Positions 2,933 through 29,623 of a stretch of 36,742 nucleotides of DNA are shown here, one piece after another. The position numbers were made by a program, and so were the translations under genes. Source of the stretch: a virus. Under the pieces are notes generated by a model, which was given only the letters and a program-made list of their open reading frames with translations, was not told where the DNA came from and ran no database searches. Positions within the stretch are counted from its first letter, which is position 1. Each line of letters opens with the position of its first letter. The stretch spans positions 1 through 36,742 of the IMG/VR virus record IMGVR_UViG_3300049043_000085. One strand, written 5' to 3'.

Positions 2933-3021
2933 GGCGAACGCACAAAATCACCGGGTTGCCGCCGGTGAGCGTCAGTGAGGAAACAGCCGGACGGCAACTC
3001 CGGTGCATTTTTTTGTTATGC
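2933..3021. repeat. attC-like recombination site A
   Basis: Imperfect palindrome of 89 bp. Outer boxes are GGCGAAC (degenerate) and GTTATGC (3015-3021). Inner arms are CACCGGGTTGCCG (2949-2961) and CGGCAAC-T-CCGGTG (2992-3005), leaving T2999 unpaired. This matches the R''-L''-L'-R' plan of integron attC sites (RYYYAAC...GTTRRRY with extrahelical bases). Confidence 0.65.
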
Positions 3022-3045
3022 GGAGGATTAAGAAAGGTTTGAATT

Positions 3046-3363
3046 ATGAGTGACTTTAAGGAACTGCAAAAAGACGTTGAAGGGGCTTCGTGTTCATCGC
3101 GTTGTTCTACGGATCAGTATATTCCGAGAACAGATGACGCATTGCCGATCAGCGACGAATGGTTTCGCGACAATTGGCCGGAAGAGCATAGCGAAGACAA
3201 TTACGCGGTTGAATGTCCGCTTGGATGGTTTGAGGTTTCGCTTCACGGCGAAGACTGCTTGTCGTTTCACCTCTCAGGTTACGCTTGGGATGGTGAGCGA
3301 CTGAAGACACGCGGCGATGTCCGTCGTTTGCTGTGGTATTTGGAGGCGGAGTTGATTCCGTAG
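3046..3363 (+). CDS. Cassette-borne hypothetical protein 1
   Basis: 105 residues, acidic, with Trp- and Glu-rich stretches (DEWFRDNWPEEHSEDNYAV) and no membrane segment. The ATG lies 24 bases after the GTTATGC box of site A, with GGAGG at 3022-3026 and a nearer AAGAAAGG. The TAG stop lies inside the first box of site B. Start just after one attC-like site and stop within the next is the canonical layout of an integron gene cassette. Function unknown. Confidence 0.7.
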   Translation: MSDFKELQKDVEGASCSSRCSTDQYIPRTDDALPISDEWFRDNWPEEHSEDNYAVECPLGWFEVSLHGEDCLSFHLSGYAWDGERLKTRGDVRRLLWYLEAELIP

Positions 3364-3448
3364 AACGCCAGCGGTAACCGAGTCGCCGCCAAGAGACTCG
3401 GATTGAGAACTAGGTGACCGGCGACTTCGGTTCACCGCTTTGTTATGC
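3360..3448. repeat. attC-like recombination site B
   Basis: 89 bp. Outer boxes are GTAGAAC (3360-3366) and GTTATGC (3442-3448). Arms AGCGGT-AACCGA-GTCGCCG (3370-3388) pair with CGGCGAC-T-TCGGTT-C-ACCGCT (3419-3439), leaving T3426 and C3433 unpaired. Two bulges on one arm are the hallmark of attC folding. Confidence 0.75.
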
Positions 3449-3789
3449 GGAGTGTGATGATGTCCATTGAGTTGATGCCAGCGATTGAGCCGTTTACCCA
3501 TGTGCCTTGTTTGTGCTGCGAGCCGATGCAGTCTCAAATATGTCCAAATCGGCGTATTGCAGTCGGTTTTGGCATGGCGGCTCTGACAAAAGATGGAGAG
3601 ATCGTGTGGATGGAAGAAAGACACGACTGGGATCAATGCCTAACGGTGGCACAGGCAGAGGAGTTGGCCGCTGCCGACCCAGAACACGATTGGCGAATCG
3701 TATTGCACGGCCCTTTGCGAGGATCGACCTATCAGCGGCATGGCGAAAAGAAATGGATGTTGATTGAAAAAAATGAAGGGTTCGCATAA
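3445..3789 (+). CDS. Cassette-borne hypothetical protein 2
   Basis: 114 residues from the first ATG, which lies inside the GTTATGC box. ATGs at 3457 and 3460 are equally plausible starts. Features are a cluster of Cys near the N-terminus (PCLCCEPMQSQICP) and a C-terminal run (DPEHDWRIVLHGPLRGSTYQ) of a kind I associate with small planctomycete proteins. The TAA stop lies inside the GCATAAC box of site C. Function unknown. The cassette it occupies, box to box, is 427 bp, the same as the preceding one. Confidence 0.7.
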   Translation: MRSVMMSIELMPAIEPFTHVPCLCCEPMQSQICPNRRIAVGFGMAALTKDGEIVWMEERHDWDQCLTVAQAEELAAADPEHDWRIVLHGPLRGSTYQRHGEKKWMLIEKNEGFA

Positions 3790-3875
3790 CGACAGCAATA
3801 ACCGGGTTGCCGGTAGAAAGAACTGAATCATGGATAAAGCGTCGGCGGCAACTCCGGTTGATTGCATTGTTATGC
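3784..3875. repeat. attC-like recombination site C
   Basis: Best preserved of the set, 92 bp. Boxes are GCATAAC (3784-3790) and GTTATGC (3869-3875), exact complements. Arms GCAAT-AACCGG-GTTGCCG (3795-3812) pair with CGGCAAC-T-CCGGTT-G-ATTGC (3846-3865), leaving T3853 and G3860 unpaired. T and G are the extrahelical bases known for the recombinogenic strand of classical attC sites. Confidence 0.8.
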
Positions 3876-4158
3876 GGCATGTCCGTAGCCGTCAGTCAGG
3901 ATCACGATTGCCGAAAGGCACGATCTGCTGCACTCGCCCGGGACGCTGGGGAAACCCATATCCAGATGCTGCCACGTTTCGGAGCGTCTTGGAACGTGCG
4001 TTGCGCGGCGAGGTCAACGCAAATGACAGCGAGGATGCATGCCACATGGTCTGGATTGCAGAGCATCTTGACGAACTTCGTGGCAATAATCTTGCGTGTT
4101 GGTGCAAAAGGGCAAGCCGTGCCACGCTGACGTCTTGCTTGAGTTCGCGAATCAATAG
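3872..4158 (+). CDS. DUF4326-like cassette protein, one base missing
   Basis: Residues around TRPGRWGNPY, then EHLDELRGNNLACWCK, match the DUF4326 family (short domain with GxWGNP and CWC...CHxDVL motifs, unknown function). After CWCK the frame runs on as an unrelated tail to 4231. One added base near 4108 restores GKPCHADVLLEFANQ and a TAG at 4156-4158, just before the next attC-like box. The repaired protein is 95 residues. The first in-frame ATG (3872) lies in the GTTATGC box. The single missing base may be a sequencing error. Confidence 0.65.
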
Positions 4159-4161
4159 TCC

Positions 4162-4200
4162 GCATAACGATCAATTCACCGCGCCTGAGCCGTTCGTAAT
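4162..4200. repeat. Half attC-like site D
   Basis: GCATAAC (4162-4168) followed by an L''-like stretch (CAATTCACCG) matches the left half of site C, directly after the repaired stop of the third cassette gene. No GTTATGC right half follows, so the cluster ends in a truncated site. Confidence 0.4.
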
Positions 4201-4238
4201 GCAGAATCCACCGCAGCTGAGCCGTGCATAATGTCGGG
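4175..4238 (+). repeat. Imperfect 32-bp direct repeat, two copies
   Basis: TTCACCGCGCCTGAGCCG... (4175-4206) and TCCACCGCAGCTGAGCCG... (4207-4238) share CACCG, CTGAGCCGT and TAATG in register. The second copy contains the start of the next gene. It lies exactly where the cassette cluster ends. Confidence 0.55.
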
Positions 4239-4539
4239 ACCAACCATGTCGGATCATCTCAAAAAATTGGCGGCCGCCAGACGCACGTTGCGAGTGATCG
4301 CAAGCTGGGCGGCCGGCGACCACCGCAGCGGATTGCGTCGCGAGGAAGCGATCACCGCTATCTATCAACAGGCCATGATGGCCTTGAAGGAGACCAGCGA
4401 CTATGGCCACAGCATGGATGCTGGCACTGCTAATGAGCAGCGGACCACCGGATTGACCCATGCGCCGAGGTGCAGGTCGATTTGCTCGAGGTCAATACGC
4501 TGTACAACAGCCGGTGCGAGCCGGTGTTCACGCAGGTGA
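4231..4539 (+). CDS. Small hypothetical protein; C-terminus doubtful
   Basis: 102 residues as read; an ATG at 4246 is an alternative start. Residues from MSDHLKKLAAARRTLRVIAS to about DYGHSMDAGT look coding (helical, with Ala/Arg pattern). After about 4430 the sequence becomes Arg/Ser/Cys-rich and overlaps the next gene by 70 bases, so the true end may be nearer 4456 in another frame. No family recognised. Confidence 0.45.
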   Translation: MSGPTMSDHLKKLAAARRTLRVIASWAAGDHRSGLRREEAITAIYQQAMMALKETSDYGHSMDAGTANEQRTTGLTHAPRCRSICSRSIRCTTAGASRCSRR

Positions 4540-5020: not shown

Positions 5021-7193
5021 CTATGATTTCGATCGCTTCACCGCTCGCATTTCCGACATGCTCACGCGTCGCGTTTTGGCGGGCGTCGCTGCCGACACGC
5101 TCGCCGGATCCGAGTCGACCGACATCGCGGCCACCAGCTCCGGCGATCGCTCGTCGCGCCGCATCGCCACATGCCGACGGATCGTTTTCCGCTCGGACTC
5201 GCCCGGGATCTTGACCCCCTGCAGCGACGCACCCACCGCGGCCAGGATCAACGCGTCCAACAGGTGATTGTCCCTGTTCGGTCGCACCGCCCACTCGTAC
5301 AGCTCGCGGCCATGCCCTGCCGTCTTGGTCGGGTACTCCGATGCCAAATGGTCCGCGATCATCCGGTGCCGCAATGCTGCCGCTTTGTACAGCCACCACG
5401 CACCCGGTGCGTCGAGCCCCTCAATCTGCCAGCACTCGTTTAATTTGGTCTTCCATGTGTTGGTGTCGACGAGCACATACCGCGGGCACGCGTCCCTCGA
5501 GTCGGCGGCATCCGCCAGCCGTAGCCCATCCGTTCGCCACGCCTAGGGCGTTCCATGACCCAAGGCCGCTGCCGAGCCGTCACGCCGCGACCGTGCGACG
5601 GGATGACGTTGGGATGTGCCTGCGAAAACTGGTAGACGGTTTCGGCCTGGTAGCCCGAGTCAACCACCATCTGCGAGACCCGCAGCTGGCCGCCATCGTC
5701 GCGCGTGTATTCCACGGCCAGCCGTTCCGATCGCAATCGGTTCAATCCTTCCAATAGCGCTGCCGTTGGCGATCGCATTCCGGTTACGCGAATCATCGTC
5801 CGCTCGACGTCCGAGAGGGTCAGGTAATCGATCCCCTGATCCGGCCAAACGCCGTAGTCGAGCACCATCCCACGAAAATCGGACCCGATCCCACACACGA
5901 CCCACCACAGCGATGAGCCTTGCACGTCGACCCCCAGCGTCACATGGTCGACCCAGTCTGGGCACTCGCCCCGTTTGTGCGTCGGGATCGTCCGCAGGCA
6001 GTACTGGTCCGACGTCAGGCACGTGATCCCCTCGGTGGGCGAGACGAGCGGACGCGGACTGTTTTGGTACTCGGCATCGAACGTATCGGGATGATCGTAA
6101 CGCAGGTCCATCGCATGCTGCAGGGCCGACAGCTCATGCGTTGCTTTTGCGCCGGCCAACCCACCATCGAACCCGCGTCCATGGCGGCGGCGATGTTTGC
6201 GGTAGTAGCTGGTGGCCTTGGGATGGTCGTCCACTCCCTCGGCGATCTCGTCGGACCGGATCTCAAAATACTGTTTCCAATGCTCGGTGTCGGTCGGCCA
6301 TTCGTAGACCAGCTTGCATCGCTCGCCATGCCACTTGGGCATCAGCAATCGGTTGAGCATCCGGTCCGCCATGTCCCCCTCGCGAATGACCGTAACGGCC
6401 CCGAATCCCGAGATCCGTTTTCCGGGTCCGGCCAGGCCGAGGACCGCACCACCGACGACCTTCTCACGTTTCGCGCATTCCGGATCGGACAATGCCGACG
6501 TGTCGGTTTGCGGATCGTTCACCAAAACAAAATCAGGCCGGAACGTCTTGCCGTCTGCGCCGTCTTCATCATGCCTCTAATGCGGCCCAAAATTCCAGCG
6601 ACGCGGATCACAGCACCGGAGGATTTGCTACCAGCGATGGTCGGAAAAACAAGTTCCTTGCGCTTCCATCCGACCAGGGTTCGCGCTCCCTGCGAGGTCT
6701 GGGCGTTGCCGCGCTGGGTGATCCCCTCGAGGCATCGGATCGGGTAAGCGATCTCGGGAAAATCTTCGAGCAGCAGGTCGTTGGTCTCCCACTCGATCTT
6801 GATCGTATCGAGCGATTCCTCCGCGGCTCCCTCGTCGGCTTCGACCAGAACACCGAATCGTCGATGCGCATACGCCAGCACCCACAGCAGGGCCCGCAGT
6901 AAGATGGTCGTCTTGCCACTTCCACGCGGCATCGCGATCGCTTTGAGACCGCCATCGATGGCTCGCTGCTCGATGTCCTTCAAGATCCGCAGGTGGTCGT
7001 CCGAAAACGGCAGCGGGAAGGATTCGGGAAAGTAGGTCGTTAGAAATTTCTTCAGATCCCGCTCGCACGTCGCGCGACGTTTGGCGTTTTTGACTTTGGG
7101 GATCGGGCCGATGTCGCGAGCTTCGGCCGATTGTTCCGACGCCTTGGCCGCCTGGCGTCGTCGATGTTTCTGGTAGGTGTTGTCGTCGGTCAT
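5021..7193 (-). CDS. Terminase large subunit, GpA type, two frame breaks
   Basis: The ATPase end starts at 7193 with a Walker A motif PRGSGKTT (residues 89-96). One base is missing near 6558: the frame should run from RIRGMMKT into DGKTFRPDFVLVNDPQTDTS. The nuclease part follows (TLGVDVQGSSLWW, MVVDSGYQ). A second base is missing near 5490, after which the C-terminus reads RYVLVDTNTWKT and then DNHLLDALILA, the last acidic nuclease motif. The repaired length is 724 residues, close to the GpA family's usual 640-720. The protein cuts and packages phage DNA into proheads. It is the last gene of the minus-strand operon, far from the portal, and no small subunit is recognised beside it. Confidence 0.85.
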
Positions 7194-23193: not shown

Positions 23194-23247
23194 GTAGCCA
23201 CGGCCGCGTAGGCCGTGGATCCCCCACCGCTTGGCAGCGGTGGCTAC
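23194..23247. repeat. REP-like palindrome doublet (family 1)
   Basis: GTAGCCACGGCCGCGTAGGC + CGTGG and CCCACCGCTTGGCAGCGGTG + GCTAC form inverted arms with internal palindromes. On the minus strand the GTAGCC end provides the TAG stop (23244-23246) of the integrase. Apart from this and the inverted repeat, 23110-23243 holds no gene. Confidence 0.8.
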
Positions 23248-24326
23248 GTCGTGGCCCGCTCCCAATGCTGATCCGTGACCATCGCATACGATCGCATCGC
23301 AACGGCGGCGCTGTTGCCGATCCATTGCGACGCGGTGGCGAGTCCGTACTGCTCAATCAATTCGGTCTCACGCGTGGCGCGCATCGAGTGCCACGGTGCC
23401 CGCCAGGGCGTGACGCCAGCGATCGCCATCAGATTGAGCAACCGACACGCCATGCCGGAATCACTGCCGTCGATCAAATCACCGCACAGCGGCACATCGC
23501 GAGGATGACGATCAAGGGCCGCGGCAATCTCGGGGAATAGCGGAATGGTTCGCGTGGTGTCTCGTTTGCGGTCGCAAATGGTGATCCGTTTTCGATCCCA
23601 GTCGATTGCTTCCCAGGTCAGCGACCGCAGCTCGCTCGGGACGCGGATCCCACCGAATCGGCTCATGGCGATCGCGACCGCCATCGATGGCGTGGCGATG
23701 GCCATCAATTGGTTCGCTACACCGACCGGGACAAAATGCTTTTCCCGGACGCCAATTGCGGTCGATAGTTCCCGAGCGGGATTGTCGGCGATGAGATTGC
23801 GTGAGACGCACCAGGCAAAAAATGCTTTCCATGCGGCTGCAATCTTGCCCCGTGTGGACTCGCCCACGGTCAGCGCCTGGTAGCACTCGGCGACATCCTC
23901 GAGGTCGACGCGATCGATGGGCCGATGGTTGAGCGTAGCACGTAGCAGATCGAGCGACCGCTGGCGATCGGTCCAGGTGGAGAGTGCCAACCGCTCGCGG
24001 ACGTCGTGGACGTAGGCATCGATGGCGGTGCCGACCGTGTGGGTTGCGCCCAGGATCGCATCGAGCTTGCGCCGCAGCGCTGGACAGATTTGGTCCAGCC
24101 ACCGCACGGTCTGACGAGGTAACGGCAGATCGGCGGTTTGCGCCTCAAGGATCGCGTCAACGTGACGTTGGACGGCGACCGCTTCGGCCTCGGGCAGATC
24201 GCCGAGCCAGATCGATTTGCGACCGGTGGCGGTGTACGCTCGCAGCCGGTAGCCCGTGCGTGACTTGGTCTCACGCGTCAGACTGGACATTGGCCGCGTC
24301 GGGTTCGGTGGCTGTTTCGAATTCAC
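23244..24326 (-). CDS. Tyrosine recombinase embedded in the head operon
   Basis: 360 residues, intact. Catalytic pattern: R228 (GGIRVPSELRSL), H313 and R316 (HSMR), W335 in the usual His/Trp position, and Y347 (RSYAMV). A SAM-like N-terminal domain precedes (TWTDRQRSLDLLRATL). The first ATG overlaps the portal end by 56 bases; ATG 24290 (MSSLTRETKSRTGYRL) overlaps by only 20 and is more likely. An integrase between portal and protease is not usual phage order, so a later insertion or a separate mobile element is possible. Confidence 0.85.
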   Translation of the reverse strand: MNSKQPPNPTRPMSSLTRETKSRTGYRLRAYTATGRKSIWLGDLPEAEAVAVQRHVDAILEAQTADLPLPRQTVRWLDQICPALRRKLDAILGATHTVGTAIDAYVHDVRERLALSTWTDRQRSLDLLRATLNHRPIDRVDLEDVAECYQALTVGESTRGKIAAAWKAFFAWCVSRNLIADNPARELSTAIGVREKHFVPVGVANQLMAIATPSMAVAIAMSRFGGIRVPSELRSLTWEAIDWDRKRITICDRKRDTTRTIPLFPEIAAALDRHPRDVPLCGDLIDGSDSGMACRLLNLMAIAGVTPWRAPWHSMRATRETELIEQYGLATASQWIGNSAAVAMRSYAMVTDQHWERATT

Positions 24327-28759: not shown

Positions 28760-29623
28760 CTACGCAGCCGGCGGTTCTGGTGGGCGTCTTCCTGACCTGA
28801 TCGACCTCGAGTCGATGTAGTGGCGCCGCACCGTCCGAACGCCTCCTGCGTGACCCAGTGATTCTGCTGCAGCATACTCGCCTTCCTGTTCGTAGATTTG
28901 TGTTGCGTGCGTCTTACGCAGCGTGGCGAACCCCTGGCCATAGTTTCGACGGAAGCCCATCGACTCGGCCATCTTGAACAGTTGCTTGGCAGCGTAGACC
29001 ATGCAAGACTTTCCGACCGGAAACACTCGATCTGTCGTTCGAATTTTTTTCATCAGTGCAATGGCGGTTGGCGACAGCATCGCCGTATGAGGCCGTCCCG
29101 TTTTGTGCTGCACTAGCGACACCGACTTGGACTCTAGGTCCACATCTGACCATCGCATCCTGCGTATATCGGATGGTCTAAGGCCGGTGTCGTACATGAC
29201 ACGCACCAGAGCCTGGACAAAGTCGCTACGCAAAACGCCGTAATGCATCTGACCCTTGAGTCGTCCGGCAGCTGCAAGCAGCATTTGCACCTGGGAGAGC
29301 GTCCAGGCTCGAACAGGTTTCTGGTCTATTTTCGAGTGTCTAATTCGCCGAGCGTCGTAGGGCGGCACCAATTCCAGTTCGACGGCCAGGTTCCAGACGC
29401 GAGTAAATCCGCGTCGATAGCTTGCGATGGTTGCGCCGGTTTTTCCAATTGTGTGGAGATGCACAAGAAATCGGTTGACACTGCCGAGAGTCAGATCCTC
29501 TGTCGTCGCGTCATGTCCGACGAACTCGGAGAATTTCCGGATGCAGCGATTGTATTGGTCGATTGTGCATTGCTCTAGGTCGCACTCCGTTGCAACCCGC
29601 AGAACCAAATCTGCAAGTCGCAT
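28760..29623 (-). CDS. int: Tyrosine integrase next to attP candidate
   Basis: 287 residues, intact. Motifs: R149 (DTGLRPSDIRRMRW), K174 (HKTGRP), R236 (TLRKTHATQIY; the His of HxxR is Ala233), H258 (SLGHAGG) and Y269 (RRHYID). An N-terminal SAM-like core-binding domain (TIDQYNRCIRKFSEFVG) is present. It mediates phage integration/excision. The tRNA-like segment begins about 70 bases beyond its start, and an excisionase-like gene diverges on the other side. Confidence 0.85.
   Translation of the reverse strand: MRLADLVLRVATECDLEQCTIDQYNRCIRKFSEFVGHDATTEDLTLGSVNRFLVHLHTIGKTGATIASYRRGFTRVWNLAVELELVPPYDARRIRHSKIDQKPVRAWTLSQVQMLLAAAGRLKGQMHYGVLRSDFVQALVRVMYDTGLRPSDIRRMRWSDVDLESKSVSLVQHKTGRPHTAMLSPTAIALMKKIRTTDRVFPVGKSCMVYAAKQLFKMAESMGFRRNYGQGFATLRKTHATQIYEQEGEYAAAESLGHAGGVRTVRRHYIDSRSIRSGRRPPEPPAA

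Follow-up and report, generated by a model that had tools for sequence, protein, structure and literature searches.

The phage and its cluster of small genes

What kind of element is the cluster of palindromes and small ORFs at positions 2933-4168 of this phage genome, and how would its genes be acquired and expressed? The window, meaning the whole 36,742 bp stretch analysed here, is an entire IMG/VR virus record of a tailed phage of planctomycetes and codes for a portal protein, a large terminase, a head protease/capsid protein, a tape measure protein and two tyrosine recombinases. Two related phage records, L001 and L108, carry comparable clusters. The left border is a phage gene (2416-2864, plus strand) that runs in the direction of the cassette ORFs and whose protein is 36-38% identical in L001 and L108; on the right lie phage genes (4231-4832, plus strand) whose proteins are 76-80% identical in the same two records. 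A megablast search of the first 20 kb of the window against the phage collection gave no match. The host is most probably a planctomycete, judging from portal relatives (41-53% identity) encoded by about 25 of 294 planctomycete genomes and from the type of attC site described below; no control phylum was included, leaving the host evidence without a negative control. The large terminase gene (5440-7193) is split into two overlapping frames in the window but forms a single long ORF in L001 (746 aa) and L108 (730 aa). A sequencing error or decay in the window record could account for the split.

Three attC sites on the minus strand

A covariance model was derived from 44 planctomycete chromosomal attC sites (91 aligned columns, no phage or window sequence included) and run on both strands of the window with cmsearch, as the sequence-only reading had advised. 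All three full attC-like palindromes which that reading had described are present, each giving a significant minus-strand match: site 1 at 2933-3021 (66 bits, E = 1.9e-18), site 2 at 3360-3448 (79 bits, E = 1.2e-22) and site 3 at 3784-3875 (70 bits, E = 9.6e-20). In the minus-strand reading of site 1, the R'' box occupies 3015-3021 and the R' box 2933-2939. The best plus-strand score in the window was 18 bits (E = 0.0024), at site 2. The model also matched the class 1 integron attC of plasmid pIPO2T on its usual strand (E = 4.7e-6), and it found nothing in 17 relatives of the window phage that lack the cluster. In the underlying alignment 17 of 18 pairs include sequences in which both partners have changed, and columns 16 and 23 are unpaired throughout; this covariation is biased towards structure, the sites having been picked by a structural rule.

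The window sites are imperfect palindromes with R''/L''/L'/R' boxes and AAC...GTT ends, as is required of attC. All three also meet the criterion of an unpaired central spacer plus two extrahelical bases on one arm, the two unpaired bases being 6 bp apart in each folded site. Site 1 is 94% identical over 86 bp (2937-3022) to an attC of L108 (4338-4423). The boxes are confined to the cluster: the whole window has only three copies of GTTATGC (3015, 3442 and 3869) and two of GCATAAC (3784 and 4162). A scanner based on structure only (AAC box, spacer, stem, extra base, 6 bp, extra base, stem, loop, closing arms, GTT) returned precisely the three sites in 36.7 kb and four sites in the closest relative, L001, with one weak match in 30 other relatives.

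The other check advised, a search of planctomycete genomes, placed this attC type almost only in planctomycetes. The core-stem pattern was found in 49 stretches among about 85,000 species genomes, 44 of them with planctomycete titles, and the chromosomal matches lie in cassette arrays, not at scattered non-cassette positions. A dense array of the planctomycete type was seen in L090 (JAGYKB010000051.1), a contig labelled as a gammaproteobacterial MAG that has probably been misbinned. An Rfam search of the window yielded nothing at gathering scores; a first attC pattern, with a spacer of 40-70, had no matches because the real spacing is longer, and a second, applied to viral contigs, added two records and no more. 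We conclude that 2933-4168 consists of three true attC sites and three cassettes.

The palindromes fold into strong hairpins, lie between co-directional ORFs and would be transcribed, features also expected of transcription terminators or mRNA elements separating small phage genes. This alternative is all but ruled out by attC matches with E values of 1e-18 to 1e-22 that include both unpaired-base positions, by the absence of the elements from the 17 relatives, and by exchange boundaries that lie inside the R' box (see below).

Contents of the cassettes

The three small ORFs lie between the sites as the sequence-only reading had described, except that the third is apparently frameshifted. ORF1 (3046-3363, plus strand; 105 aa) belongs to no known family, and no relatives of it were found in viral contigs. 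ORF2 (3445-3789, plus strand) codes for 114 aa, or 108 aa if it starts at 3463; L198 and L199 contain relatives of it at 56-57% identity, which are phage genes not located in attC arrays. ORF3 (3872-4158, plus strand) is a DUF4326 gene (PF14216, E = 1.8e-9; phrog_464). The stop codons of ORF1 (TAG) and ORF2 (TAA) both sit within the next box, which is the left box of the following site, and in-frame ATG codons for ORF2 and ORF3 are contained in the GTTATGC boxes. The apparent frameshift of ORF3 falls near 4105-4112, at a short A/G run; the expected C-terminal motif carries on in another frame to a TAG at 4156-4158, which leaves 3 nt between it and the box at 4162. Crossovers at 2939, 3366, 3790 and 4168 define exchange units of 427, 424 and 378 bp. 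The earlier claim of two 427-bp cassettes is therefore correct only for the distance between GTTATGC boxes, whose equality we attribute to chance. Overall, the cassettes of these arrays hold mainly orphan ORFs of 60-150 aa; one in L001 codes for a phage protein of the crAss001_48 family. No second copies of the window's own cassettes were found.

Cassette genes run against attC in phages and with it in chromosomes

The unpaired features of a folded attC steer IntI to the bottom strand and so set the orientation of the cassette (PMC8946536). In aadA-type and VCR sites the two unpaired bases are on the R''/L'' arm, and the pIPO2T match agrees with that placement. When the window sites are read along their ORFs, the unpaired bases fall on the opposite arm; the attC sites must therefore be on the minus strand. 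The model, too, places attC on the minus strand (scores of 66 to 79 bits, against at most 18 bits on the plus strand). As the ORFs are on the plus strand, all three are thus antisense. A typical cassette has its ORF co-directional with attC, and this criterion fails in the window, as does the normal cassette layout that the sequence-only reading had assigned to the ORFs.

The same layout prevails in other phages. The direction of every cassette was called from the longest ORFs of its two strands, a length-based criterion, after removal of shared cassettes. The viral contigs were found through attC patterns, with L001, L108 and the window added, and the frequency of arrays among phages cannot be derived from such a sample. 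Twenty-seven viral cassettes were antisense, 6 sense (4 of these in a single record, L038) and 15 ambiguous, as against 117 sense, 31 antisense and 21 ambiguous cassettes in chromosomes (Fisher p = 7e-11). Scored by contig, the ratio of antisense to sense was 14:1 for the 15 viral contigs and 5:23 for the chromosomal ones (p = 1.9e-6). The phage genes that flank the arrays mostly run against the attC direction too. Both directions represent real coding, since chromosomal sense and viral antisense ORFs alike include known families; on the antisense side these are DUF4326, crAss001_48 and the phage relatives of ORF2. Cassettes of this type are thus mostly antisense in planctomycete phages and mostly sense in host chromosomes.

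Two trivial explanations were rejected. A wrong call of attC polarity does not agree with the class 1 attC of pIPO2T and an attC of Tetrasphaera phage TJE1, both of which score on the canonical strand, nor with the block of L001 described below, which includes one site, stops at the next and is compatible with no polarity but the one that the unpaired bases indicate. The notion that the attC sequence itself gives rise to antisense ORFs is excluded by the same code giving the opposite result on chromosomal arrays of the same type.

L038 is the prophage record of an isolate, with its sense array at the end of the record. In another genome, G328, a prophage adjoins a sense chromosomal array, and the sense cassettes of L038 may be explicable in the same way. 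G328 itself had been considered as a prophage with an internal array; this was rejected, the array being a sense chromosomal one next to the prophage. In G336, a further apparent prophage with an internal array shows a single clear site plus two weak fragments.

Relatives of the window phage occur as prophages next to sense chromosomal attC arrays both in G328 (L207-L208; contig 1, 2478000-2517999) and in L038/L193. It is conceivable that integron arrays serve as a landing place for such prophages. A different arrangement is seen in L197 (5476-7384), in which four attC sites bound cassettes that each hold two converging ORFs of similar size.

An attI-like element at a conserved insertion point

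On either side of the array, the window shares about 81% identity with L001 and L108, which contain four and six attC sites, respectively, with other ORFs in between. Phage homology picks up again at window positions 4159-4162, at a GCATAAC/GCCTAAC box. Three related phages thus carry different cassettes at one conserved insertion point. On the minus strand the conserved flank comprises two imperfect palindromic repeats, after which comes TGAATTGATNG|TT. The resulting attI-like element (4162-4240, minus strand) has its G|TT core in the plus-strand GCATAAC box; on the minus strand, TGAATTGAT and two degenerate direct repeats 32 bp apart come before this core. What had been taken for a half site at 4162 is therefore not half an attC and is better read as an attI-like insertion junction.

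The same element opens the array of L180, a phage whose backbone is different at the DNA level. A degenerate version of the motif occurred in 3 records among 2.9 million viral contigs, always at the start of an array, and in none of 294 planctomycete genomes; blastn comparison of the element with host intI loci returned only matches of chance length. From its position we infer that 4162-4240 is a phage attI, an inference that covers four phages only; its function is likewise inferred. The element does not satisfy what is expected of a Pc promoter region, for the ORFs point towards it and a promoter there could not read them in sense.

The apparent frameshifts in the window (the split terminase and ORF3) indicate imperfect assembly quality, and one may ask whether a chromosomal integron fragment was misassembled into a phage contig or misbinned as one. 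We consider this very unlikely: three independent records have arrays at one and the same phage locus, arrays occur in phages that have terminase, portal and head genes, and the polarity of the ORFs is opposite to that in chromosomal arrays.

Exchange of whole cassettes between phages

A block of 528 bp is 100% identical between L001 (2392-2919) and L184 (7074-7601). It is bounded by the R' boxes of two successive sites and contains one attC and one ORF. L184 comes from another metagenome and its virion genes are dissimilar to those of L001, whose contig it matches only at the array and in short stretches. The ends of the block fit attC sites on the minus strand, because the polarity set by the ORFs would put them at other boxes. 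L178, L184 and L180 share a second cassette, at 98.7-99.3% identity. It stands directly after attI in L180 and after an attC in L178 and L184, with identity starting from G|TT, which is the pattern predicted for attI x attC and attC x attC recombination. Whole cassettes, cut at the crossover, have thus been exchanged between phages. The requirement that a gene cassette be a small ORF plus attC moved as a unit is met by these relatives, which have the same attC type and layout. For crossover by IntI at G|TT there is only an indirect sign, namely that the cassettes exchanged in relatives end at the R' box.

An inert cluster, captured once from a host integron and altered since only by homologous recombination at its repeated attC sites, would be a simpler history. 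Inactive clusters of attC sites lacking an integron-integrase (CALINs) are common, and attC sites are near-identical between units with different ORFs, making homologous exchange possible. Nevertheless this history appears unlikely. Exchanged blocks stop at the crossover base; one cassette lies behind attI in one phage and behind attC in two others with no shared flank; three related phages hold wholly different cassettes at one locus; and simple capture would yield sense cassettes, as the chromosomal ones are sense.

The suggestion that phages move cassettes between hosts was borne out in part: identical cassettes occur in different phages, but no cassette in the sample was common to viral and chromosomal arrays, and no transfer from phage to host was seen.

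Source of the recombinase

No protein above the IntI cutoff was found in any of 23 virus records, some of which may be partial; the best TIGR02249 score in the window is 23 bits, against a cutoff of 265. The window record thus fails the criterion of a complete integron, an intI gene, and satisfies that of a CALIN, at least two attC sites without a nearby intI, with three sites and no IntI in the record. On this point, the absence of an intI-type integrase from a CALIN-like cluster in a phage, the sequence-only reading held. Among host genomes with arrays, 12 of 21 encode an IntI above the curated cutoff, and intI adjoins the array at several host loci. IntI1 is known to act in trans on attC sites of other phages (PMC9892861). 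Because the virus records have no IntI, 12 of the 21 hosts do, and the IntI1 precedent exists, we infer that host IntI acts in trans.

Alternatively, the same array and the same exchanges could be the work of a phage tyrosine recombinase. The window encodes two, at 23244-24326 and 28760-29623, which differ from each other; a relative of the second is present in G016 (L184), which has a cassette in common with L001. This alternative seems unlikely. PF00589 finds no match in 15 of the 22 virus records that carry this attC type, including records of 50-65 kb, the window proteins score far below the IntI cutoff, and in all known cases it is IntI that recognises attC as a folded strand (PMC8946536).

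A model for antisense cassettes

Host IntI thus remains the preferred recombinase, and the locus is best explained, in our opinion, as a phage-borne integron array without an integrase of its own, made up of an attI-like platform and three gene cassettes. We regard this as likely, in the absence of direct data on recombination or transcription. The recombination machinery would work on the minus strand, joining cassettes at G|TT, in attI as in each R' box, with host IntI supplied in trans during infection, co-infection or lysogeny. The cassette genes lie on the plus strand, co-directional with the upstream phage genes and so readable from the phage operon, and transcription would start at an upstream phage promoter. 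The putative attI would be placed at the downstream end of this operon, pointing against it. Antisense cassettes would then be kept because only antisense ORFs get expressed from such an operon; new cassettes would enter at the promoter-distal end while older genes stay in place. The proposal leaves unexplained how antisense cassettes were first made. Other points weigh against the reading as a whole: partial virus records could miss an integrase, no cassette is shared between a phage and a chromosome, 15 viral cassettes are ambiguous, and the prophage record L038 is sense.

A bolder reading, towards which the balance tilts slightly, is that planctomycete phages have their own attI and a dedicated pool of antisense cassettes, swapped between unrelated phages by host IntI.

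Relation to known systems

Clusters of attC sites in phages (PMC9892861) and integrons in planctomycetes (PMC2426708, PMC8352920) are already known. The closest parallel is the CALIN of Tetrasphaera phage TJE1 (Qi et al. 2023, PMC9892861), where, as in the window, a tailed phage devoid of intI carries attC sites together with small cassette genes; sites of TJE1-type phages have been shown to be used by IntI1 (PMC9892861). In TJE1, however, the cassettes are sense at two sites inspected by eye, the model confirming the strand at one of them, whereas in the window phage and its relatives the ORFs are antisense, the array starts at a conserved attI-like element and identical cassettes recur from one phage to another. 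None of these three features was found in the main text of PMC9892861. The planctomycete covariance model had no match in the first 50 kb of phage H101. Sedentary chromosomal integrons of planctomycetes share the attC type of the window phage but reside in hosts with intI, which lies beside several arrays; their cassettes are longer (median gap 488 bp, versus about 300 bp in phages) and mostly sense. The aadA-type attC of class 1 integrons shares with the window sites a pair of unpaired bases, 6 bp apart and on the same arm, but its loop is shorter and it occurs on plasmids with IntI1 and a Pc promoter. The integrons of Treponema (PMC3607928) also depart from the usual orientation; there intI is reversed relative to the array, whereas in the window the cassette genes are reversed relative to attC and intI is absent. 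The literature searched, which was incomplete and did not cover bioRxiv preprints, contained no report of systematically antisense phage arrays, of a phage attI-like site without intI, or of identical cassettes in different phages.

Accessory regions of phage genomes change fast, and the jumps of small genes between unrelated phages are mostly unexplained. Here the mechanism is legible in the sequence: one-gene cassettes are excised at a defined base and inserted after attI or after another attC. The antisense rule links the layout of cassettes with the direction in which the phage operon runs, and annotation that assumes sense cassettes would mislead for such arrays. If the proposal is true, a host enzyme that is part of a host adaptation machine serves gene exchange among phages.

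Repeats and near-identical attC sites in relatives

Three copies of a 27-bp palindromic repeat, CCGTAGCTGCGACCACCAGGTCGCGGA, are found in L001 at 1816-1935, inside the coding sequence of the gene that precedes the array. Finally, near-identical attC sites (94-99% over 79-88 bp) are joined to unrelated ORFs in different phages. Besides site 1 of the window (2937-3022) and its L108 counterpart (4338-4423), such pairs are L001 2915-2995 and L184 6728-6808, L108 2565-2643 and L177 9764-9842, and L177 9767-9854 and L191 7661-7748. Conceivably, cassettes are born when new genes are placed under an existing attC.
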